This document shows, in pieces, positions 1-64,000 of a DNA stretch of 64,000 nt; position 1 is the stretch's first letter, and the number at the start of each line of letters is the position of its first letter. A model generated the notes under the pieces. The model had not been told where the DNA came from. It worked only from the letters and a program-made list of their open reading frames with translations, and did not search any database. A program made the position numbers and the translations under genes. This stretch comes from Solobacterium sp. (GTDB taxonomy: Bacteria; Bacillota_I; Bacilli_A; Erysipelotrichales; Erysipelotrichaceae), in NCBI GenBank assembly GCA_024693325.1, contig JAILLA010000106.1, forward strand, positions 1-64,000, read 5' to 3'.

Positions 1-1638
1 GGGGAGTTCTGTTTTCTTTGCCAGCTCCGAGATAAAGCTGTTTCCGATGGTGATATTGATAAAGCCTTTACCATTGCCGACCACCTTGAGATCCTTCATG
101 AAACGAAGCACCTCAGAGGAGGAGTATGTGTTATCCAATTCGCAGAATTGAAATAAACGGATCAGTAATACAGTCAGATAACAGATCAGGAAGTGTCCTT
201 TGATCGTATCTTCCTTCTGAAGAAATACCGGCCTGGCATCCAGATCTGATTTCATGATCCGGAAAGATTCTTCGATACGCCAGAGATTGTGATAAGTGGA
301 ATATATATCAGTCGCTTTCGCTTTGATCTCTGAAGTGACGAGCAGATTGTATCCCGCAAGACGGAGATCTTCGTCGATCACTTTCTCGTTGATCACGGCT
401 TTCACTTTGTCATCCGTTTCTTTTCCTTTGGAAGTGGATCTGAATGTGACATATTTGGAGCACTCACCATATTCGCTCTTCTTTGCCAGAGAAGCTGAAA
501 GTCCTTTTGCCTTTTCAACGAGCCGGTTGATCTCATACGTCTTCTTCTTCGCAAGCGATGGATTGAACGTGACGACACGTTTCTCTGTCAGTTCGAACAT
601 ATGGCGTTTTCCATTCTCATCGGTATATGTATATGGGAACTGATCGACACACTCTTTCCAGTAATAAAGAACTTTTCCGGACGTATCTTTGACTGAATGA
701 TAATCCCTGTCCAGCAGGACCCATGTCTTTTCCGTCTCGGGCAGCAGCTTTACGGACTTGGAAAACAGATAACCGTCTCCGTTCTGCCGCGCAAAGAAGA
801 TGTTCGCTGCGCAGTTAAGACCCTTATCTGCGACCTGTATGGTGCGGCCGCTGACTTCATGACGCATCTTGAGACCGTTTACCACATCACGAATCACAGG
901 CTTCTCTGATTCATTGCCGGGATACAGTTTCATGCCGATCGGGATCTGATTGGCATCGAGCAGAAGACCGAGTCCGACGATCGGATCTTTTCTGTTTTCC
1001 TTGCTTGGACCTTTCATCCGGAATCCGTCCTCGCGGTCGATCTCGAAATAGAAGTTCGTGCAGTCGAAGTAAGTGATATCTGTATTGATCGGATAATACT
1101 TCTTGACCTGCATATTGAACATCTCAACGAACTTCTCGTAATCATTCCCGAAGAAAGATAATCCTTCCAGTAACTGATCATAGGAAAAGTCGTGCGGTTC
1201 AAACAGAGAGGGAATGACCTCATTGTATGTTCTGTGCTTACTGCAGGGGCTGACGGCCCTTGCATAGATCAGAGAAGAAAGGACATCATAAAGATCGAAG
1301 TCATAGGATGTCGTGATTTTATAAAGATCTACGAATCTGCGGATATCAAGTTTTTCCATGATCGCCTTCAGCGGAAAGTATCCGAGATTCTTCTCAGGGG
1401 AAACAGCAGAGATCTTCTGAACTTCCTTTTCTGCTTTCCGTTCGGCATTCATACGCTCTACTTCAGCTTTGTAGTAAGCGATGGGATCGTCGATACCGTC
1501 ACGTATGAGCTTGGTAACAGAGCCAAGAGATTTGAAACAGCGGTGCTTCGTGCCTTTGGAATCAGGAGAATAGAAGGATTCATAGATGGCAAGATAAGTG
1601 TTGTTAGCCTGGTTCTGGATCTTAAGAAAGTAAGCCAT
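1..1638 (-). CDS. IS1634-family transposase (3' end beyond window)
   Basis: An uninterrupted reading frame of 546 codons runs from ATG at 1638 leftwards off the window edge, so the C-terminus is missing but nothing visible is broken. The protein begins MAYFLKIQNQ. It has the layout of IS4/IS1634 DDE transposases: an early Asp in a YFDCTNF segment, a second Asp in VADKGLN (around nt 820-830), and a catalytic Glu in LWRIEESFRIMK (around nt 250-285), which fits the R-x3-E-x5/6-K pattern of the family. The family cuts and pastes the element through a DDE active site. Start choice: the first ATG after a GGTGGG SD buried in a hairpin. Function as transposase is firm; the exact IS name cannot be given. 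Confidence 0.9.
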   Translation of the reverse strand, partial: MAYFLKIQNQANNTYLAIYESFYSPDSKGTKHRCFKSLGSVTKLIRDGIDDPIAYYKAEVERMNAERKAEKEVQKISAVSPEKNLGYFPLKAIMEKLDIRRFVDLYKITTSYDFDLYDVLSSLIYARAVSPCSKHRTYNEVIPSLFEPHDFSYDQLLEGLSFFGNDYEKFVEMFNMQVKKYYPINTDITYFDCTNFYFEIDREDGFRMKGPSKENRKDPIVGLGLLLDANQIPIGMKLYPGNESEKPVIRDVVNGLKMRHEVSGRTIQVADKGLNCAANIFFARQNGDGYLFSKSVKLLPETEKTWVLLDRDYHSVKDTSGKVLYYWKECVDQFPYTYTDENGKRHMFELTEKRVVTFNPSLAKKKTYEINRLVEKAKGLSASLAKKSEYGECSKYVTFRSTSKGKETDDKVKAVINEKVIDEDLRLAGYNLLVTSEIKAKATDIYSTYHNLWRIEESFRIMKSDLDARPVFLQKEDTIKGHFLICYLTVLLIRLFQFCELDNTYSSSEVLRFMKDLKVVGNGKGFINITIGNSFISELAKKTELP

Positions 1639-3566: not shown

Positions 3567-4469
3567 TCATGATCCGGGGGACGGTTCAGGTCCGGCAGTA
3601 ACAATGTACCGGTCACTGACATCCGTCATTTTGCAGAAAAGTGCATATCTTGCGTCAGCGAAATCATCCGAGCATGTCAGCATCGTTACGATCCTGTCTG
3701 TCGGATAGACCACAACATCGGAAACAAAGGTCGAATTGTCAAACCAGTGCTGCAGATATGCCAGATATTCATCCTCAGAGGCAAACGCTGTCTCCAGGAA
3801 CTGATCCTTCGCATCATTGATCGACCCGGCAAACGGTTCCAGCAGGTATACGGTACCTGCTTTTGTTATGAGCAGGAATTCACGGTGTTCATCATAGTAT
3901 GCCTGGCTTTCATATTTTTCCAGGGTACCGAACATCGTCCCGTCCTTGCGTCCATGCGCAAACAGCGGCGTATTGGTATCCGTAAAGTCAGGTGCTGTGC
4001 TGTCCAGCGTAAATACGCAGCCCATATGATTCCATTCACCTGTAAACAGGTGGTTCAGGTAATAATCGTTGTCAGCGTTCTGTACGATCGGATAATTGAT
4101 AACTGACGTATCCTGCCTCAGCCATCCGATCACATCGGGGTTGATCTCTTCCAATGCGGCAAAGTCCAGATGGATCTGCGTCCTGGTATCGACATCCGCA
4201 TCATCGGCACCGATCGGCATCACCTGTTCTGTCAGCTGATCATACGCGCCGGTCCCCTGCTTTCGCTCGGCATAGATCTGCCAGAAACGGTAGCCGGAAT
4301 AAATGGCGGTGCCCAGTGCAAGCACGAGCAGAATACTGAAGACCAGGACACCTGTTGCGGAAAGCTTCCTTTTTTTCGTTTTGGATGACTTCTCCGGTTC
4401 CTTCAGATCGCTGATATCGATCATCTGGGTATCCTGTATCGATTCCGGCAGCTCAGTTTTCTTATTCAT
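3567..4469 (-). CDS. srtB: Class B sortase
   Basis: 300 residues from the ATG at 4469; an in-frame TTG at 4490 is a weaker choice. There is a cytoplasmic N-terminus, then one transmembrane helix (residues about 35-58, VLVFSILLVLALGTAIY), then an extracellular sortase fold. Class B signatures are a long spacer, YPIVQ before the catalytic His (TPLFAHGRKDG), the Cys in TMLTCSDD and an Arg shortly after (ADARYALF). Sortases cleave a sorting motif and join surface proteins to peptidoglycan or to pili. No sorting-signal substrate lies nearby, so the target is unknown. It overlaps prmC by 8 bases and is the last gene of the rpoD-prfA-prmC operon, which suggests steady expression. Confidence 0.88.
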   Translation of the reverse strand: MNKKTELPESIQDTQMIDISDLKEPEKSSKTKKRKLSATGVLVFSILLVLALGTAIYSGYRFWQIYAERKQGTGAYDQLTEQVMPIGADDADVDTRTQIHLDFAALEEINPDVIGWLRQDTSVINYPIVQNADNDYYLNHLFTGEWNHMGCVFTLDSTAPDFTDTNTPLFAHGRKDGTMFGTLEKYESQAYYDEHREFLLITKAGTVYLLEPFAGSINDAKDQFLETAFASEDEYLAYLQHWFDNSTFVSDVVVYPTDRIVTMLTCSDDFADARYALFCKMTDVSDRYIVTAGPEPSPGS

Positions 4470-5325
4470 AGCTGCATCCGAAGTATACAAACAGCATTCT
4501 GTCCTTCCCGTTCATATCCTTGATGATCTCATAGGATGCCTCGGGAAGAAGTGATTCGACGAGCACGCTCATGCGTTCACGCTGGTCCCAGCCCATCTCA
4601 AAAGCCATGAAGCTTTTTTCCTTCAGGACACTGCGGCAGTTCTCGAAGATCACACGGTAAAACTTCAGTCCGTCTTCTCCGCCGAACAGCGCTACATGAG
4701 GTTCAAAATCAACGACCGAGCGTTCCATCTTTTCCTCTGCAGGAATATAGGGCGGATTGGAGATCAGAACGTCCAGCTTCATGCCGCGTTCTTTCAGAGG
4801 CTCCAGCATATCACCGGCAAACATTTCGATATCCGCGTCATTGTTCTTCGCGTTCTGTTTTGCGACTTCCAGCGCTTCCTCAGAAATATCCGTAGCGCAC
4901 ATGCGCACGCGCGGCTCTTCCTTCGCGACCGTGATCGCGATCGCGCCGCTGCCTGTACCGACATCGGCACAGACGACCTCCTTCTGGTCCGGGAAGATAT
5001 GATCGATCCTTGCCAGGATCCTGGAACAGAGCTCTTCCGTCTCCTCCCTTGGGATCAGGACATCCGGATTGACGATCATCTGGTATCCGTAGAACCATGA
5101 GTAGCCGAGTACATGTGCCATCGGTTCCTGGTCCAGGATCCTTGCCATGCCTTCATCGAACTGTTTCTCAAGATCTTCCGGCATCTGCTCGTCAAAGTGC
5201 AGATACAGATCGAACCGTTCTTTCCTGCTGATCTCCACAAGGTATGCCATGACCGTCTGCTGAGGTACATCGTTCTTCTCACAGAGACGCTCATATTTTC
5301 TGACAGCTTTTGCAAACGTTGTCAT
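4462..5325 (-). CDS. prmC: Release factor glutamine methyltransferase PrmC
   Basis: 287 residues, normal length. It methylates the Gln of the GGQ motif of release factors with S-adenosylmethionine as donor. It has an N-terminal helical substrate-recognition domain, then a class I methyltransferase domain with the SAM loop DVGTGSGAIAI and the catalytic NPPY motif (ISNPPYIPAEE). Its start codon overlaps the prfA stop as TAATG, so the enzyme is translationally coupled to its own substrate RF1, a common arrangement in Bacillota. The downstream sortase begins inside its last codons. Confidence 0.95.
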   Translation of the reverse strand: MTTFAKAVRKYERLCEKNDVPQQTVMAYLVEISRKERFDLYLHFDEQMPEDLEKQFDEGMARILDQEPMAHVLGYSWFYGYQMIVNPDVLIPREETEELCSRILARIDHIFPDQKEVVCADVGTGSGAIAITVAKEEPRVRMCATDISEEALEVAKQNAKNNDADIEMFAGDMLEPLKERGMKLDVLISNPPYIPAEEKMERSVVDFEPHVALFGGEDGLKFYRVIFENCRSVLKEKSFMAFEMGWDQRERMSVLVESLLPEASYEIIKDMNGKDRMLFVYFGCSYE

Positions 5326-6398
5326 TACTGTGCCTCTTTCAGTTTATTCTTCTCATCTTCCGCCAGAAGTCCGGCAATGACATCATCAAGCTTTCCTTCC
5401 ATGATACGGTCAAGCTGTGTGATCGTCAGACCGATCCTGTGGTCGGTCACACGGTTCTGGGGATAATTGTATGTACGGATCTTTTCCGAGCGGTCTCCCG
5501 TGCCGATCTTTGCCCTGCGGATCGCGCCTGCTTCCTCATCCCTGATCCGCTTCAGTTCTTCATATACACGCGCTCTGATCAGACGCATCGCTGTTTCACG
5601 GTTTTCGATCTGGGAACGTCCTTCCTGGCAGTTGACGGTAATGCCTGTCGGAATATGCACGATACGGACTGCAGAGTCGGTCTTATTGATATGCTGTCCG
5701 CCTGCACCGGAAGCTCTGTGTGTTTCGATCGTCAGATCTTTGGGATCGATATCGATATCAGACTCCTCTGCTTCAGGCTGGCACAGTACGGTAGCTGTGG
5801 ACGTATGGATGCGTCCCTGTGTTTCCGTCTTCGGAACACGCTGTACACGGTGTGCTCCTGATTCAAACTTCAGATCATGATAAACATCCGTGCCTTTGAC
5901 GGAGAATATGATCTGGCTGAATCCGCCTGCTTCGGAAGGACTGGCTTCCATGACCTGGACCTTCCAGCCTCTTGATTCAGCATACTTTGTATACATGCGG
6001 TACAGATCACCGGCAAAAATGTTTCCTTCATCTCCGCCTGCGCCGCCTCTGATCTCCATGATCACGTCATGACTGTCATCAGGGTCACGCGGTATGAGCA
6101 GGTGCTGGATGTGTTCCAGAAGCTGTTCCCGTTCGGGTTCACACTCTTCTTTTTCCGCCCTGGCCATCTCTCTCATTTCCGGATCATCTTCATTCAGGAG
6201 CTCATTGGCTTCTTCGATCCGTGTATCCAGTTCCTGCAGATGTTTCCAGGCATCCACCGTCTGCTGCAGACGTGCCTGTTCCTTGGACAGTTTCGTCAGG
6301 ATCTTCGGATCCGACAGGTTCTCCTCTTTCAGGAGCGCCTCACTGATCTCATCATACTGCTTCTGCAATTCTCTTAATTTTTCGCGTACTGCGTCCAT
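5325..6398 (-). CDS. prfA: Peptide chain release factor 1
   Basis: 357 residues, full length for RF1. It reads UAA and UAG stop codons and releases the finished peptide. The catalytic GGQ is seen in SGAGGQHINK. The tripeptide that reads the stop codon is in RVPKTETQGRIHTS (PKT, the RF1-type PxT motif; RF2 would have SPF), which separates it from prfB. An SD GGGGAGGAAAA lies just before the ATG. It lies 12 bases after rpoD and is coupled to prmC. Confidence 0.96.
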   Translation of the reverse strand: MDAVREKLRELQKQYDEISEALLKEENLSDPKILTKLSKEQARLQQTVDAWKHLQELDTRIEEANELLNEDDPEMREMARAEKEECEPEREQLLEHIQHLLIPRDPDDSHDVIMEIRGGAGGDEGNIFAGDLYRMYTKYAESRGWKVQVMEASPSEAGGFSQIIFSVKGTDVYHDLKFESGAHRVQRVPKTETQGRIHTSTATVLCQPEAEESDIDIDPKDLTIETHRASGAGGQHINKTDSAVRIVHIPTGITVNCQEGRSQIENRETAMRLIRARVYEELKRIRDEEAGAIRRAKIGTGDRSEKIRTYNYPQNRVTDHRIGLTITQLDRIMEGKLDDVIAGLLAEDEKNKLKEAQ

Positions 6399-52633: not shown

Positions 52634-53527
52634 TTATTTCTGCATCTTCGGGTCGATTGCGTCACGCAGACCATCGCCAAGAATGTTAAAGCAAAGAATC
52701 GTAAGGAAGATAGCAGATCCCGGAGGAATCCAGTACCACCATTTTTTCTGCAGGACCAGAAGGTTTCTGGCTTCCTGGATCAGGTTGCCCCATGTCGGAG
52801 TCGGCATGGATACACCAAGTCCAAGGAATGAGAGCGATGTCTCTGTCAGGATAACACTGGCCATTGAAAGTGTGACATAAACGATAATGTACGCCAGTAC
52901 GTTCGGGAACAGATGCTTGAAGATCTGACGTTTATTGGAAATACCAAGCGCACGGCAGGCTTCCATGTAGTCCATTTCACGGAGAGACAGGATCTGTCCG
53001 CGGACGATACGAGCGATACTGGGCCAGGAAAGAACGGCCAGGATCGTGATCAGTGTCATAATGGATGTTCCGAAGATAGCCTGCAGTGTGATACAGATCA
53101 TCAGGAACGGGAAGCACATGAACATTTCGGAAATACGGCTGATGATCGTATCAACGATGCCGCCGAAGAAACCGGCCATGGATCCGAGAACCACACCGAT
53201 GATCGTTTCCAGAACGGTAACTGCGATAGCAATACCAAGCGATACACGTCCGCCGTAGAACAGACGTACAAAGAGGTCACGTCCGATCTTGTCAGTACCC
53301 AGGAGATGTTTTGCACTGGGCGGCTGATTTGCATCGGCTGCGATAACTTCATACATAGAATACTTGGAAAACATCGGGACAAAAATGCATGCGCCGACGA
53401 TCAGAATCAGAATAAACAGACTGATCATGGCGAGCTTGTTCTGTTTTAAACGTCTCCATACACCGCGCCAATAGGAATCTTCCTTGGTTGACTTCCGGAT
53501 TACTTCATCACGAGATAATTCAGTCAT
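52634..53527 (-). CDS. oppC: Oligopeptide ABC transporter permease OppC
   Basis: 297 residues, normal length with six membrane helices. TM1 about 33-55, then a short extracellular loop of about 45 residues leading to KHLLGTDKIGRDLFVRLFYGG, and the EAA motif MEACRALGISNKRQIFKHLFPN. The loop is the site where the second OppC holds an extra domain. SD AGGGGG. Confidence 0.94.
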   Translation of the reverse strand: MTELSRDEVIRKSTKEDSYWRGVWRRLKQNKLAMISLFILILIVGACIFVPMFSKYSMYEVIAADANQPPSAKHLLGTDKIGRDLFVRLFYGGRVSLGIAIAVTVLETIIGVVLGSMAGFFGGIVDTIISRISEMFMCFPFLMICITLQAIFGTSIMTLITILAVLSWPSIARIVRGQILSLREMDYMEACRALGISNKRQIFKHLFPNVLAYIIVYVTLSMASVILTETSLSFLGLGVSMPTPTWGNLIQEARNLLVLQKKWWYWIPPGSAIFLTILCFNILGDGLRDAIDPKMQK

Positions 53528-56849: not shown

Positions 56850-58361
56850 TTACTTCTCAATATCGAGACCATCCAGCAGCGGATGATGACATGCAACAAA
56901 GTGGTTCGGTTCCATCTCTGTCCATGCCGGGACCACATGTCTGCAGATATCCGTGCAGTAACGGCATCTGGTATGGAATTTGCATCCTTTCGGAGGATTG
57001 ACCGGTGAAGGAATATCCCCTTCCAGGATCTGCAGCTCTTTTGACGCATCCGGATCTGTTGTCGGGATTGCCGCGATCAGTGCCTGTGTATACGGATGGA
57101 TCGGTTTTGCGAACAGAGCCTCAGACTCCGCAAGCTCAACCATGTTGCCGAGATACATGACGCCGATCCGGTCGCTGATATATTTGACGACCGAAAGATC
57201 ATGCGTGATAAACAGATATGTCAGGTCCTGTTTTTCCCGCAGGTCCTGCAGAAGGTTGATGATCTGTGACTGGATCGAAACGTCCAGCGCGGATACCGCC
57301 TCATCGCAGACAACGAACTTCGGTTTGACCGCAAGGCTTCTGGCAATAGAGATACGCTGTCTCTGTCCGCCTGAGAACTGATGCGGGAAACGGTGCAGGA
57401 AGTACGGTGCAAGACCGCATTCATCCATGACCTTCAGAATATAGTCCTGCATACGGGGTGAATTCTTTGAGAACAGGTTATGCGCCATCAGGCCTTCACC
57501 GATGATCTGGCCGATCGTCAGACGCGGGTTCAATGAGGAATACGGATCCTGGAAGACGATCTGCAGATCCCTTCTGAGGAGTCTGATCTCATTGTATTCC
57601 AGACGCGCAAGGTCGATCCCGTCATCTCTCAATGCTTCGTATTTATCGAAATCCGGCTGGTGCTGATACTGTTTGCGAAGTTTGTCGATCGCTGTCTTGC
57701 TGTCAGCGATCTTTTCATCAAGCTCCGCCAGTTCCTTATCGAAAGAATCCAGTTTTGCATCATAGGAGCTCAGATTCTTCTGTTTGAATTCGGCATCTTC
57801 ACGCTTTGCGCGTGTCTGTGCCTTTTCCTCACGCACATCACGGCGCTTTTTCGCATATTCATACCATGTTTCATATGCTTTCCTGACCGGTGTCAGATCA
57901 TCTGCTGTGAGCAGACCGCCGACGATATTGGCAACATTCAGAAGTGCGTCGTTCGCTTCCTTACGTGCCTGTTCCAGAGCAGCGTGTTTTTCAAACTGCT
58001 CTTTTTCACTCAGCTGCACGTATTCTGCTTCGAGTTTGTTCTTTTTCTCTTCTTCGACGAAGATCTGTTCCTTCAGCTTCGGAAGATTACGGATCGTATC
58101 AATGACATAACCCGGCGCGATATCATCCAGCGTTCTGCCGTAGTACATCGTTCTGCCGTCTGTCTGTTTGTATAACTGCAGGATCGTGCGTCCGAACGTA
58201 CTCTTGCCGCAGCCGGATTCACCGACCAGTCCGAAGACCTCACCCTCGTAGATATCCAGGGAGATCCCGTCGTTTGCTTTAACAAATGTCCCTTTTTTCT
58301 TCAGCGGGAACCACTGTTTCAGGTTTGTGATCCTGAGAAGGACCTTTCTTTCCTCAGCCAT
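56850..58361 (-). CDS. OppF-type ATPase with a large coiled-coil insertion
   Basis: 503 residues, about 165 more than the OppF next door. Walker A GESGCGKST at 47-55, then an insertion at about 85-255 that is Lys/Glu/Ala-rich and predicted as coiled coil (EEEKKNKLEAEYVQ, EKAQTRAKREDAEFK, DKELAELDEKIADSK), then the Q-loop LQIVFQDPYSSLNPR at about 266-280, signature FSGGQRQRI, Walker B VVCDEAVSALD, H-loop ITHDLSV and the C-terminal Cys cluster CKFHTRCRYCTDIC. Every ATPase motif is intact, so it should still work as a transporter ATPase with an added arm in the cytoplasm. Confidence 0.92.
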   Translation of the reverse strand: MAEERKVLLRITNLKQWFPLKKKGTFVKANDGISLDIYEGEVFGLVGESGCGKSTFGRTILQLYKQTDGRTMYYGRTLDDIAPGYVIDTIRNLPKLKEQIFVEEEKKNKLEAEYVQLSEKEQFEKHAALEQARKEANDALLNVANIVGGLLTADDLTPVRKAYETWYEYAKKRRDVREEKAQTRAKREDAEFKQKNLSSYDAKLDSFDKELAELDEKIADSKTAIDKLRKQYQHQPDFDKYEALRDDGIDLARLEYNEIRLLRRDLQIVFQDPYSSLNPRLTIGQIIGEGLMAHNLFSKNSPRMQDYILKVMDECGLAPYFLHRFPHQFSGGQRQRISIARSLAVKPKFVVCDEAVSALDVSIQSQIINLLQDLREKQDLTYLFITHDLSVVKYISDRIGVMYLGNMVELAESEALFAKPIHPYTQALIAAIPTTDPDASKELQILEGDIPSPVNPPKGCKFHTRCRYCTDICRHVVPAWTEMEPNHFVACHHPLLDGLDIEK

Positions 58362-59340
58362 GACGCACCTCCATATCCGGATAGAAGCACCGGATCTGCT
58401 GGGTATCGTTCACGCGAACCAGCTTAGGTTCCTCCTGAAGGCATTTTTCCGTTGCATATTTGCAGCGCGGCGCAAATTTGCATCCCTTCGGAAGATCAAG
58501 CGGATGCGGTACAGCACCCGGGATCGATTCCAGGCGTTCATTCGGTTTTGAATTCAGACGCGGAATGGAACGGAACAGTCCTTCCGTATACGGATGCTGG
58601 AACTGCGGACTGGAGAAGATCGTTCTCGCAGGAGACATTTCAACCACCTGGCCGCAGTACATGACAGCTACGTCGTCCGCCATCTGATTGATGACACCAA
58701 GGTCATGGGTAATAAACAGGATGGATGTTCCTTTTTCCTTTTTCAGGTCATTCATCAGGCGCAGGATCTGTGCCTGGATCGTAACATCCAGTGCTGTCGT
58801 CGGTTCATCGGCGATCAGAAGTTTCGGACGGCATGCCAGTGCCATGGCGATCATGACACGCTGGCGCATACCGCCGGAAAGCTGATGCGGATACTGTTTC
58901 AATACAACTTCCGGATTCGGGATCTTGACGTCCGCAAGCATTTCCAGAGCCTTTGCGGAAGCTTCCTGCTTGCTCATGCCCTGATGGATCATGAACGGTT
59001 CCGATACCTGACGCTCGATCGTAAAGATCGGGTTCAGGGATGTCATCGGTTCCTGGAATATGACCGAGATCGCGTTTCCGCGGATCTTGTACATTTCATT
59101 CAGGGAGATCTTTGTCAGATCCTGTCCGTCAAACATGATCGTACCGCTGTCGATCCAGCCGTTCGCGTCAAGCAGACGCAGAATGCTCATAGCGGATACG
59201 GATTTTCCGGAACCGGATTCACCGACCAGACCGAGTGTCTTTCCCGCTTCCACGGAATAAGAAACATCGTTGACCGCTTTTACGGTTCCGCGTTTTGTAT
59301 GAAAGAAGGTATGGAGATTATTTACTTCGAGTAAAGCCAT
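58354..59340 (-). CDS. oppD: Oligopeptide ABC transporter ATPase OppD (operon 2)
   Basis: 328 residues from ATG 59340 (SD AGGAGG). Normal OppD layout: Walker [23 protein letters not shown], signature LSGGMRQRV, Walker [19 protein letters not shown]-terminal [14 protein letters not shown]. No insertion here, so the added parts of this importer are confined to its OppC and OppF. Overlaps the next gene by 8 bases. Confidence 0.93.
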
Positions 59341-59356
59341 TCTGTCCATCCTCCTT

Positions 59357-61186
59357 TCATCGTCCGAGCGACTTCGGATCCACAGCATCACGGATCGCGT
59401 CGCCCATCAGATTGATGCAGATCGTACAGAGACCGAAGATCGCAGCCGGGAATACCCAGCGCCACCAGTACTGCTGTATGACGATCGAGTTATTAGCACC
59501 GGTAAGCATGTTACCCCATGTCGGTGTCGGCGGTGTAATACCGAAGCCGAGATATGACAGGGATGATTCTGTCAGCATGCATGTCGCAAAGCCGAGTGTT
59601 GCCTGAACCAGCAGGATCGACAGAACATTCGGCAGAATATGCTTGAAGATGATCGTTCCTTCGCGCACACCCATTGCCTGGGCAGCCAGGACGAATTCCT
59701 TCTCTCTTTCCGCCAGGATCTGCGCCCTGATCAGACGGCAGATACCCGTCCAGGAAAGCAGGCCGAGGACTACCATGATCAGATACATACGCATCTGAAC
59801 ATCAAACCTCGTTCCGATGATCGCGCTCAGCAGCAATGCAAACGGAAGGAACGGCAGACCTCCGATGATCTCGGAAATACGCATTATCAGCATATCCGTC
59901 CTGCCGCCGAAGTAACCGGCCAGCGCGCCGAGGATGACGCCGACGATGATCGAGATGATCTCGGCGATCGCACCGACCGTCATCGTTGTCTTTCCGCCAT
60001 GGATGATACGTGTGAGGATATCCCTGCCCAGATCATCCGTTCCGAGCGGATGTCCCTTCAGGCCCCATGTATGGATATCTCCGGATGTCGTAACAGCATA
60101 GTTCTGATAGAATCCGGCAAATACTGTTTCAATATCGCCTGAGTTGACGGAAGCAGTGACATTCGTCTCACCGTGGGAATTGCTTCCCCAGGAGATCACA
60201 TCACCGTTTTCCATCAGTGCTGTATAGTGATATCTTCCGCCGTAAAGCTCGACCGGTTTGGAATCTGTTTCGGGCACGTTTTTCTCACCGTGCGTCGCAT
60301 TTCCCCATACCGTGATCTTTCCGTTCCGGTCAACTGCGGCCATCGTGTCACCGCTTGCAGCAATATCAACTACTCCGCTCTTCAGGTTTTCCGGCACCTT
60401 TGTAAAGGCGTTGTTTTTCTGCAGGCCTGCATAAACGACGCTTCCGTCGTCGAGCAGAAGGCAGTAGTTATATGTCGCGACCGCGATTTTTTTCACTCTG
60501 CCCTGGTATTCTTTTTTGACATCGATGTCAGCCATGTTCCCGTTGCCCCAGAAATAAGCATTTCCGGCAGCTGTCAGTGCTCCGCTGATCTGGTATCCTG
60601 CTTCGATCTGGATGATCTCAGGTGTTCCCTTTGTACGGGAAGGCTTCAGTTCCGACGGGATCCTGTCCTGGCCGAGACGTGTACTGCCCCAGACATACAG
60701 GTGATTGTCTTCGTCGAGCGCAACGATATGGTCATATCCGGCAGCTACATCGACGATCTTTGCGTCCAGCACTTCCTGCGGGATATTCTTCATATCGATG
60801 ACATCGGTGATCTTTGTATAGCCCCATGTATAGGTATGTCCGTCCTTATCGCAGCCGACGCCGAAGGTAGGACCCGAAGCGATCGCCTGTGTATTATGGA
60901 CCATCTCCTTCGGATAGCTCATCATCGTAGATGTCGGCGGTACATTGGTCTGTGTATTGTCGGATTCACCAAGGTTGATCGGCACAAAATGCGGCGCGAT
61001 CAGAACGAACAGGAAGATCGCCAGGAATCCGATCAATCCGGTCATGCCGAGACGGTTGTGCAGGAAGTTGTCCAGCATCATCCTGCCGGGTGACTGGATC
61101 TGCTCTTCCGTCATGATGTCGATCTCTTTGTTTCTGTTTCCGAACAGGTTTCTCAGGAGAGAATGTCTTTTCTGATTGTCTGTCAT
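59357..61186 (-). CDS. OppC-type permease with an inserted seven-repeat RCC1-like propeller
   Basis: 609 residues against about 297 for normal OppC. Cytoplasmic N-terminus about 1-45, TM1 about 47-67, then residues about 100-376 form seven RCC1-type repeats of 39-47 residues, each closing with a WG-type motif (WG at 121, 166, 213, 294, 333, 374; YAG at 252 in the fourth). The OppC body then resumes exactly at HPLGTDDLGRD (379-389) with five more helices and the EAA loop QAMGVREGTIIFKHILPN. The propeller must face outside, where the binding protein docks. SD AAGGAGGG. No frame break. Confidence 0.93.
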   Translation of the reverse strand: MTDNQKRHSLLRNLFGNRNKEIDIMTEEQIQSPGRMMLDNFLHNRLGMTGLIGFLAIFLFVLIAPHFVPINLGESDNTQTNVPPTSTMMSYPKEMVHNTQAIASGPTFGVGCDKDGHTYTWGYTKITDVIDMKNIPQEVLDAKIVDVAAGYDHIVALDEDNHLYVWGSTRLGQDRIPSELKPSRTKGTPEIIQIEAGYQISGALTAAGNAYFWGNGNMADIDVKKEYQGRVKKIAVATYNYCLLLDDGSVVYAGLQKNNAFTKVPENLKSGVVDIAASGDTMAAVDRNGKITVWGNATHGEKNVPETDSKPVELYGGRYHYTALMENGDVISWGSNSHGETNVTASVNSGDIETVFAGFYQNYAVTTSGDIHTWGLKGHPLGTDDLGRDILTRIIHGGKTTMTVGAIAEIISIIVGVILGALAGYFGGRTDMLIMRISEIIGGLPFLPFALLLSAIIGTRFDVQMRMYLIMVVLGLLSWTGICRLIRAQILAEREKEFVLAAQAMGVREGTIIFKHILPNVLSILLVQATLGFATCMLTESSLSYLGFGITPPTPTWGNMLTGANNSIVIQQYWWRWVFPAAIFGLCTICINLMGDAIRDAVDPKSLGR

Positions 61187-61195
61187 ATTCCCTCC

Positions 61196-62212
61196 TTATT
61201 TATCGATATGGACACGCGGGTCAACGATACCGTAGCTCAGGTCCATGATCAGGGCACCGACCAGCGATACGACGGTATAGAACATCTGGATCGCAAGTGC
61301 CAGTTCATAGTCATGGTTCTGCAGTCCTTTGATATACAGTGAACCCATACCATTGATATTGAATGTGTTTTCGATGATCACGGATCCGGAGAAGATGCCC
61401 AGGAACCATGAAATGATCAATGTTACAACAGGTAGAAGTGCGTTTCTCCAGGCATGTGAATAGATGACTGCCTTTTCACGCACACCTTTTGCACGTGCTG
61501 TCTTGATATGATCCATGCTCAGTGCATCGATCATCGCAGCCCTGACATAACGTGTCATGCCGCCGAGTGATCCGAACGTCATGACGATCAGCGGAAGCGC
61601 AAAGTAATACAGCCTGTCGAGGAACAGTTTCATGCCGGTATAATTCGCTCCCGGCGTACCCATGCCGGATACCGGGAACCATCTCAGCAGTACTGCGAAG
61701 ATGAATACAAATACAAGCGCAATGATATATACCGGAATACTGTATCCGATGATCGTAAATACCTGTGTGAAATTATCGATCTTTCCGCCTTTATGCACCG
61801 CACAGTAGATACCCAGCGGGATCGTAATGCCCAGTGCAAGGATCGTTGCGAATATATTGATGAAAATCGTTGTTTTCAGAGGCGATACGACGACCTCTAT
61901 AACATTTTTCTTGAAGTACTGGGAATATCCGAAATTGCCTTCCAGCAGTCCGTAGAATTTCCCTTCCATATTGGGGATCAGCCCCATCCAGCGCGCATAA
62001 CGGATCAGTATATGATCGTCAAGTCCCATCTGTTTACGCAGATTCTGATACATCTGCTGATACGCCTCAGGTGTGAGTGAACTCTTCATTCCTTCCAGCT
62101 GGTCTCTTGCCGGGTCGGACGGAATCAGATTGTACAGCATATACATCAGAAGAGAGACGATGAAAAAGACAAGGACCAGATATCCGATACGCTTAATGAT
62201 ATACTTTGTCAA
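61196..62212 (-). CDS. oppB: Oligopeptide ABC transporter permease OppB (operon 2)
   Basis: 338 residues. The start is TTG at 62212, with AGGAGG eight bases earlier. OppB/DppB layout: N-terminal KYIIKRIGYLVLVFF, a fairly long extracellular loop after TM1, and EAA loop HIKTARAKGVREKAVIYSHAWRNAL. No added domain. It lies 10 bases before the fused OppC gene. Confidence 0.92.
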   Translation of the reverse strand: MTKYIIKRIGYLVLVFFIVSLLMYMLYNLIPSDPARDQLEGMKSSLTPEAYQQMYQNLRKQMGLDDHILIRYARWMGLIPNMEGKFYGLLEGNFGYSQYFKKNVIEVVVSPLKTTIFINIFATILALGITIPLGIYCAVHKGGKIDNFTQVFTIIGYSIPVYIIALVFVFIFAVLLRWFPVSGMGTPGANYTGMKLFLDRLYYFALPLIVMTFGSLGGMTRYVRAAMIDALSMDHIKTARAKGVREKAVIYSHAWRNALLPVVTLIISWFLGIFSGSVIIENTFNINGMGSLYIKGLQNHDYELALAIQMFYTVVSLVGALIMDLSYGIVDPRVHIDK

Positions 62213-62304
62213 AGCTCCTTCCTCCTTTTTTCGTTCGGTTCCTTAGAAATGAGTTCTGTCAGCAGAATTCATTTATAAAGAACCGAAACTCCTGAAAGAC
62301 ACCC

Positions 62305-62333
62305 AAACCAGCAGGGCACTGCCCTGCTGGTTT
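62305..62333 (-). terminator. Leaky hairpin between oppA and oppB (operon 2)
   Basis: Minus strand AAACCAGCAGGGC-AGT-GCCCTGCTGGTTT, a 13-bp perfect stem, then GGGTGTCTTT. A second stem (AAATGAATTCTG/CAGAACTCATTT, 62248-62275) follows. Same layout as operon 1, probably to raise oppA over the membrane genes. Confidence 0.6.
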
Positions 62334-62373
62334 CAGGTACTTATTACTTTTTGATGCTCTGAAGATTCAGCAA

Positions 62374-64000
62374 TTATTCAACTGTTGCGTATACAACTGC
62401 CTGGTCGAAGTCAAACAGGGAGTTGCATTCCAGATTCTGGATCTTGTCGCTCATGACATCATAGTAAACATTGGAGTACAGAGGTACTTCAGGGAGATAG
62501 TCATTCCATTCATCAATGAAGTCGACCCACAGTTTCAGATATGCTTCGTCATCGCCTGCTTCTACACTGTAGACCATGTCCATGGACAGCTTGTTCAGAA
62601 GTTCATCATCAGTGAAGTTTGTGTTGTATCCCATTTCATATTCTTCAGGGTTGCTTGTCTTTGTGACCCAGTTGAAGGACTGGTCATAAGCAGCTGTGAA
62701 GTTTGTAGCGAGGTTGTACATGCAGTATGTAGGTACGCCGTACTGTTCGCCCTGGGATGCATCACGATACATATAGTTCAGAAGGTCGGAGAAGCTCATG
62801 ACATTCTGGTTGATCTTCATGCCTGCCTGTGCAGTCTGGTCGCCGTTTGCCAGCATGACAGCCAGCAGTTCGGATACAGAGTTGCCTTCGGAAGAGGACC
62901 ATTCAATGATCAGAGGCATCAGGATCCTTCCGTCAGCCAGTGTAACGTTGTGCTGGTATGTTCCTGCTTCTTCCGGAGTTACTTCCTTATAACGGATACC
63001 GGATTCATACGGGTCGCCGTTTTCATTGAGTACCCAGCCGTCAGCTTCGAGTTCAGCAATCGCATCGTCAACGCTGTATGCATATGTTTCAAGCTTTTCA
63101 GCCAGTTCAGCCTTGGAATCCTGGTACATCCACATAGCCAGTCCGTAAGGGCCGTCAACAACGGAACCGTAACCTGCGCAGAATGTGTTTGCAAAGTCAT
63201 TTCTGTCGAGCAGATATGCGACAGCGTGACGTACTGCCTTGAACTGTGTCGGACCGAAGTCGCACTGGAACATCAGTTTGCCATAGCCGTTTCTTTCATA
63301 GGAAACAGTCTTGAAGCCGCCTGCTTCAACCATATCAAGAGCAGAGTCGACCTGGTTGCCGTCTGTCAGAGAGGACAGGAAGTCAACAGAACCTGTCTTC
63401 AGTTCATCGAGCATTGTTTCCTGGTTAGCCTTCTTGACAATGATCGTTTCTACGCTCGGCTTAACACCTTCGAAGTTGCCTGCATAGTTTTCGTTGATCT
63501 TCAGAACTGCAGTCAGAGCAGCCTGGTCAAATTCAACCAGTGTATACGGACCAGCGGAGATACGGCCGTCATAAATGAATCTGGAAGCGTCTACGCCTTC
63601 TTTTGTCAGTTCGCCGCCATCCAGGTATGCGCCGTTTCCGTCATCCTTGACAGTCAGATCAGCGTCACTGTACATCTTCAGTGACAGCGGTCTCAGTGTT
63701 GCGTATGTCTTCTCATAATAATAAGGGACATAGTCTGCATTAATGCGGATGCTGTATGTATAGTCATCAAGGAGTCTGATGCCGGACAGTTCCTTTGTTT
63801 CACCGCTCTGGTATGTATCGGAGCCGTAAAGGATCGCTGTGGAAACCTTAGCACCATCTTCCAGAACTGCCGGTGAATACTGTACCAGTGCATATGCAAC
63901 GTAGTTTGCAGCATTGATCGGATCGCCGTTGTTGAACTTCAGGCCTTCCTTGATCTTAACTGTGAATGTTTTTGTTCCGTCTTCGTTTTCTTCTGCTTCG
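62374..64000 (-). CDS. oppA: Oligopeptide-binding protein OppA (operon 2), N-terminus beyond window
   Basis: The frame is open from its stop at 62374 to the right edge of the window, at least 542 codons; the signal peptide and lipobox lie outside. SBP family 5 features: FTVKIKEGLKFNNGDPINAANYV, AVAYLLDRNDFANTF (the hinge YLLDR), and the C-terminal EWNDYLPEVPLYSNVYY. An inner Met at 63675 is not the start. It is the presumed partner of the propeller-bearing OppC. Confidence 0.92.
   Translation of the reverse strand, partial: EAEENEDGTKTFTVKIKEGLKFNNGDPINAANYVAYALVQYSPAVLEDGAKVSTAILYGSDTYQSGETKELSGIRLLDDYTYSIRINADYVPYYYEKTYATLRPLSLKMYSDADLTVKDDGNGAYLDGGELTKEGVDASRFIYDGRISAGPYTLVEFDQAALTAVLKINENYAGNFEGVKPSVETIIVKKANQETMLDELKTGSVDFLSSLTDGNQVDSALDMVEAGGFKTVSYERNGYGKLMFQCDFGPTQFKAVRHAVAYLLDRNDFANTFCAGYGSVVDGPYGLAMWMYQDSKAELAEKLETYAYSVDDAIAELEADGWVLNENGDPYESGIRYKEVTPEEAGTYQHNVTLADGRILMPLIIEWSSSEGNSVSELLAVMLANGDQTAQAGMKINQNVMSFSDLLNYMYRDASQGEQYGVPTYCMYNLATNFTAAYDQSFNWVTKTSNPEEYEMGYNTNFTDDELLNKLSMDMVYSVEAGDDEAYLKLWVDFIDEWNDYLPEVPLYSNVYYDVMSDKIQNLECNSLFDFDQAVVYATVE

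Follow-up and report, generated by a model that had tools for sequence, protein, structure and literature searches.

The window, the whole 64,000-nucleotide stretch of DNA analysed here, raises the question of why the OppC-type permease of a peptide importer carries a large beta-propeller, and what such a domain does there. The genes at 56850-63999 form the OppABCDF operon that holds this permease, OppC2 (Table 1). With 609 residues it is about twice as long as OppC1 of the neighbouring operon (297 residues, 52634-53527), as a sequence-only reading of the locus had noticed. That reading had also placed the extra residues between TM1 and the HPLGTDDLGRD segment, and both landmarks agree with it: the segment occupies residues 379-389 and TM1 is the model helix 45-67.

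Table 1. Positions in the window of OppC2, its parts and its partner subunits.
Feature	Positions	Strand	Basis
OppC2, OppC-type permease with RCC1/BLIP-II propeller, 609 aa from ATG	59357..61186	-	ORF, Pfam, NCBIfam, PDB sequence search, AlphaFold2, Foldseek, VIA
OppC2 cytoplasmic N-terminal segment, residues 1-44, conserved LFGNRNK...EEQ.QSPGRM	61055..61186	-	alignment; Pfam OppC_N 32-84
OppC2 TM1, residues 45-67	60986..61054	-	helix in AlphaFold2 model
OppC2 seven-bladed RCC1/BLIP-II-type beta-propeller, residues 85-378, extracytoplasmic (supported by homology)	60053..60934	-	Pfam, PDB sequence search, model, Foldseek, VIA
OppC2 permease core TM2-TM6 with HPLGTDDLGRD segment and EAA-type coupling region, residues 379-609	59360..60052	-	BPD_transp_1 416-605; OppC/DppC alignment
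OppB2 partner permease, 338 aa, TM1-TM2 loop where DppB has its scoop motif	61196..62212	-	ORF, Pfam, NCBIfam; scoop by homology
OppA2 lipoprotein substrate-binding protein, gene cut by the window end	62374..63999	-	ORF, Pfam
OppD2 ATPase, 345 aa, normal length	58354..59391	-	ORF, Pfam
OppF2 ATPase, 503 aa, enlarged	56850..58361	-	ORF, Pfam, NCBIfam, model
OppF2 helical insert, about residues 80-245, between Walker A and Q-loop	57627..58124	-	model

The permease part of OppC2 is readily recognised. Pfam OppC_N matches residues 32-84 (8e-10, 38.8 bits, curated cut-off 23.9) and BPD_transp_1 residues 416-605 (4e-29, 102 bits, curated cut-off 26.4), while residues 377-606 match E. coli OppC at 2e-53 in the PDB sequence search. 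The NCBIfam Opp4C model matches in two stretches divided by the insert (3.9e-91); because its 305.1 bits lie below the curated equivalog cut-off of 350, OppC2 is classified as OppC-type by its core, operon and structure, and not as an Opp4C equivalog. The permease part of the AlphaFold2 model is weaker than the propeller, with pLDDT values of 43-85. In VIA alignment, 280 of the 282 residues of M. tuberculosis OppC are superposed over model positions 23..606 (Z 25.2). This nearly complete alignment around the insert indicates that the permease is whole and that the propeller is an insertion. E. coli OppBCDF (8z21), DppABCDF (8z1y) and M. tuberculosis OppABCD (8j5q) share with OppC2 the TM1 region, the GTDxxGRD segment, the six-TM core and the OppABCDF operon; their OppC or DppC subunits, however, have a short TM1-TM2 loop, whereas that of OppC2 is longer by about 290 residues, which fold into a propeller. 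The joint between propeller and permease is unbroken in 36 full-length reading frames from the window's own and other assemblies, as well as in divergent forms, and an assembly or annotation chimera is ruled out by the identical joint in dozens of independent assemblies.

The insert comprises seven repeats, of which six end in WG (residues 121, 166, 213, 294, 333 and 374) and that of blade 4 in YAG. The repeat number and the length of 39-47 residues given by the earlier reading are correct, the last repeat being the exception in length. Its assignment to RCC1 and to one closed propeller also holds: the profile search gives RCC1_2 at 1.6e-29 (101.3 bits, curated cut-off 22) and RCC1 at 28.6 bits (curated cut-off 21.7), both above threshold. 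Pfam WD40_RLD, the RCC1-like domain, reaches 1.6e-35 and 123.5 bits, under its curated cut-off of 150, with a model of 363 positions that exceeds the length of the OppC2 propeller. The middle part of the protein further matches BLIP-II (down to 8e-24), UVR8, HERC2 and RCC1 in the PDB sequence search. In the AlphaFold2 single-chain model, built with 29 homologues, seven blades are formed with pLDDT of about 83-96 across most of residues 90-370. BLIP-II is ranked first by Foldseek (TM 0.86 on the target), and VIA aligns it with the model over 258 residues at an rmsd of 2.2 and 28% identity (Z 31.8). The confident model and the full-length match to BLIP-II together predict that the seven-blade ring is closed. 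The last repeat has no segment after its WG, and residues 85-98, ahead of blade 1, resemble that segment; it is probably these residues that supply the D-strand segment of the last blade, in which case the ring would be closed by its N-terminal end. The GTDDLGRD segment follows only a few residues past the last blade. BLIP-II, a secreted seven-bladed RCC1-type beta-lactamase inhibitor (1jtd, 3qhy, 3qi0), likewise has seven short blades; it is, however, soluble, whereas the OppC2 propeller is tethered inside a permease and shows no evidence of beta-lactamase binding.

The propeller is kept by purifying selection. Its dN/dS is 0.03-0.10 in most pairs of near relatives and 0.23 in one, low values which indicate that the domain is functional, and the permease core gives 0.01-0.08 in such pairs. 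Its rate of evolution is about double that of the permease core (distances of 0.48 and 0.21). All seven blades are retained in 26 aligned close relatives, with Q361 and Y363 among the conserved positions. A hyperconserved ligand site was sought in the deep alignment and not found, the conserved positions being mostly the repeat-structural G, W and H/Q. Across 45 propeller sequences, aromatic residues make up 22% of the AB loops, compared with 0.4% of the BC loops, the turns on the opposite side, and 3.5% of the CA loops. The aromatic-rich AB-loop face may resemble a protein-binding face, although this feature may be usual for bacterial RCC1 repeats.

As regards the side of the membrane, a location outside the cell, in the extracytoplasmic TM1-TM2 loop, is supported by homology to the DppC/OppC topology and by the charge around TM1. 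DppB and DppC have six TM helices each with periplasmic TM1-TM2 regions, and DppA covers both (PMC12136057). The charged N-terminus of OppC2 and the acidic flank following TM1 fit an N-in orientation. Both lines of evidence agree with the outside position proposed from the sequence, and no evidence points to the cytoplasmic side.

The search for further OppC proteins with extra residues before GTDDLGRD, suggested by the earlier reading, revealed a widespread family with one origin in two phyla. Relatives with the propeller in OppC were found at 33 loci in public genomes, mainly rumen and gut MAGs, of Solobacterium, other Erysipelotrichaceae, Oscillospiraceae and Lachnospiraceae; the full-length relatives, from Erysipelotrichaceae, other Bacilli, Oscillospiraceae and Lachnospiraceae, are 39-99% identical. 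Within the window's genus, Solobacterium, 5 of 35 other genomes carry a propeller OppC. Since three candidates were scored per genome, the counts in the wider sampling are lower bounds. Full-length forms of greater divergence, mostly 39-51% identical, are present in at least 16 of the 391 genomes sampled from the window's phylum, where two carry extra inserts and one is degenerate, and in at least 13 of the 397 sampled from the second phylum, which was reached via an Oscillospiraceae genome. Some copies are altered. One, 79% identical (L005:965-2680, +), has an in-frame TAG near its end and is either a pseudogene or an assembly error; the other is a degenerate propeller OppC of 551 aa (L089:7710-9362, +), whose operon has a 259-aa OppD-like ATPase and in which no OppF was found.

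A tree was built from 87 permease cores with the insert left out. The 49 rows that carry a propeller form one group with support of 99/90, and the nearest rows are ordinary short OppC; the propeller OppC has a single origin in this tree. Among the tree rows L031-L063, the Erysipelotrichaceae copies nest within Clostridia copies, which suggests that the whole operon entered the Erysipelotrichaceae lineage by horizontal transfer. An RCC1 protein of the own genome was considered as the source of the domain and rejected, RCC1_2 matches in this genome being confined to OppC2. No RCC1_2 repeats were found in 14 control genomes.

The partner subunits complete the importer. OppA2 in full has 656 aa, with the lipobox LLAGC and Pfam SBP_bac_5 (L064:2375-4345). 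On the same contig beyond the window end, OppA2 is immediately preceded by genes for an M3 (PepF-type) and an M20 peptidase; these fit a cluster for peptide uptake and breakdown, which suggests that the operon of this genus transports peptides. OppA, OppB, OppD and OppF stand beside every propeller OppC with enough flank, except in the degenerate 551-aa case. The insert of OppF2 is predicted to form four long helices (93-116, 119-152, 157-192 and 198-232, pLDDT about 77-96), and OppF has 440-718 aa in nearly all propeller operons, a few, either genuine or broken genes, being shorter (362-420 aa). Strict pairing of the propeller with the OppF insert was an early pattern that was undone by long OppF beside ordinary OppC (L098-L103, L106); because long OppF also occurs without a propeller, the link is one-way at best. 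Long OppF similar to OppF2 is widespread in related Bacilli, with or without the propeller.

We consider that the propeller may serve outside the membrane as a platform for docking or gating the lipoprotein OppA, comparable to MalF-P2 or the DppB scoop, with a probability of slightly under one half (about 0.48). This reading is based on the topology together with the covariation of evolutionary rates between OppA and the propeller. TM1 and the GTDDLGRD segment, standing side by side as stems, would hold the propeller next to the entrance of the permease, at which the lipid-anchored OppA docks, and the aromatic-rich face would bind OppA. In this way the large OppA could be kept at the entrance, and the propeller might help to seal or time the hand-over of peptide. 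On the cytoplasmic side, this line of importers is enlarged a second time, by the helical insert of OppF.

Comparable arrangements are known in part. In the type I importer MalFGK2, one permease subunit likewise has a large folded domain inserted on the extracytoplasmic side, MalF P2, whose fold is presumably different from the propeller. MalF belongs to another permease family, and contact with the binding protein has been demonstrated for MalF-P2, which touches MalE (PMC3150292), whereas for OppC2 we infer it. The scoop motif of the peptide permease DppB, located in its periplasmic TM1-TM2 region, also engages a binding protein (PMC12136057); it is built of a loop and two short helices and belongs to the B subunit, while OppC2 has a whole propeller in the C subunit. 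OppB2 retains its own TM1-TM2 loop, equivalent in place to the scoop.

Rate covariation was measured as partial correlations of evolutionary distances, each pair being controlled for all other parts. OppA and the propeller give a partial r of 0.37 (p 0.002, jackknife 0.30-0.59) in 26 operons and 0.33 (p 0.001, jackknife 0.24-0.49) in 22 other, distant operons, and the covariation of propeller and permease core is about 0 or below in both sets. Of the control pairs, NBD-NBD (0.54 and 0.72) and permease-permease (0.35 and 0.68) were recovered in the two sets, but the expected OppB-OppD contact was not recovered in either. In the second set, implausible pairs also reached p < 0.03 (propeller-OppD 0.23, propeller-OppF insert 0.27). 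The OppB scoop loop was dismissed as a covarying partner of the propeller, its value being significant in the first set (0.33) and unstable in the second (0.25). The test is noisy and weakly favours OppA as the partner of the propeller.

The docking of OppA has to be weighed against other roles, particularly as other Opp/Dpp systems work without a propeller. The domain could instead act in adhesion or capture, binding a target other than OppA (for example peptidoglycan, some polypeptide, a secreted protease, or a protein of host or feed origin) and thereby concentrating substrate at the importer. RCC1/BLIP-II propellers do bind proteins, BLIP-II itself being a secreted binder (PMC9218822), and both the faster divergence relative to the permease core and the peptidase genes just upstream in the window's genus are consistent with this role. 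These peptidase neighbours, however, are not family-wide, the purifying selection gives no sign of a fast-changing surface target, and a stem of a few residues between the last blade and the permease implies a small reach, which makes capture unlikely. Alternatively, the propeller may merely shield or stabilise the entrance, or fill space in a loop that tolerates large inserts, with no specific partner. Other clades have inserts of about 200 aa at this site that are unrelated to the propeller, which would agree with this, as would the nested inserts in some propellers (OppC of 1149 and 760 aa) and the degenerate look of the 551-aa form. A passive filler is opposed by the low dN/dS, by the fact that the domain arose once and was then kept by many genera in two phyla, and by the preservation of the seven blades and of Q361 and Y363 in the close relatives; we regard it as improbable.

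A sensor or gate, in which ligand binding alters transport or signals as in the large extracytoplasmic domain of BceB-type transporters, has a precedent in a translocator that works together with a signalling system and whose extracytoplasmic loop is unusually large (PMC3023708). The helical insert of OppF on the opposite side could join in such regulation, but OppF is long without a propeller too, and OppABCDF alone is the conserved context among the identified neighbours in the inspected gene rows. The chance of a sensor appears slim. The docking or gating of OppA remains our preferred reading.

The propeller is not the only domain found at this loop. Solobacterium OppC of 515-530 aa (L011, L012, L014, L015, L016; L091:6256-7806, +) have a different insert of about 200 residues at the same place, with an internal repeat-like pattern and no significant Pfam match. 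They belong to a separate type of operon, with an OppA of about 770-803 aa, likewise after PepF. The non-propeller inserts sit elsewhere on the 87-row permease tree than the propeller group. A third kind of insert was seen in a 525-aa OppC (L105:6322-7896, -), which adjoins a 726-aa OppD (4148-6325, -). Propellers may themselves be enlarged: in an OppC of 1149 aa (L084:5842-9288, +), accompanied by an OppF of 718 aa, the propeller is broken by long inserts, one of which looks rich in coiled coil, and a 760-aa OppC (L086) is enlarged in much the same way. Mutual exclusion of the propeller and other-insert OppC within the genus was discarded; no listed genome has both, but this is the chance expectation with about six of each among 36. 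A broader and rather doubtful proposal is that the TM1-TM2 loop of Bacillota OppC is a plug-in site, which would have gained at least three unrelated extracytoplasmic domains (the RCC1 propeller, the repeat-like insert of about 200 aa and the third insert) whose task would be to dock the binding protein or to select it, the propeller being a fixed turret that holds OppA.

Among 5.39 million open papers, none was found that describes an importer joining RCC1 with OppC or an oligopeptide permease, and broader searches of them brought up nothing of relevance; this is in line with the earlier reading, which knew of no ABC importer of this layout. As judged from these open papers, the propeller OppC is likely undescribed so far. 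Peptide importers feed many gut Firmicutes, and in other bacteria signalling peptides and peptide antibiotics enter through them as well. A permanent propeller beside the place where OppA docks, retained across two phyla, would add a new component to receptor recognition by these importers. OppC2 also points to an OppC loop that accepts whole domains and, if the plug-in and turret proposal is true, peptide importers would have a novel means of linking their receptor to the translocator.
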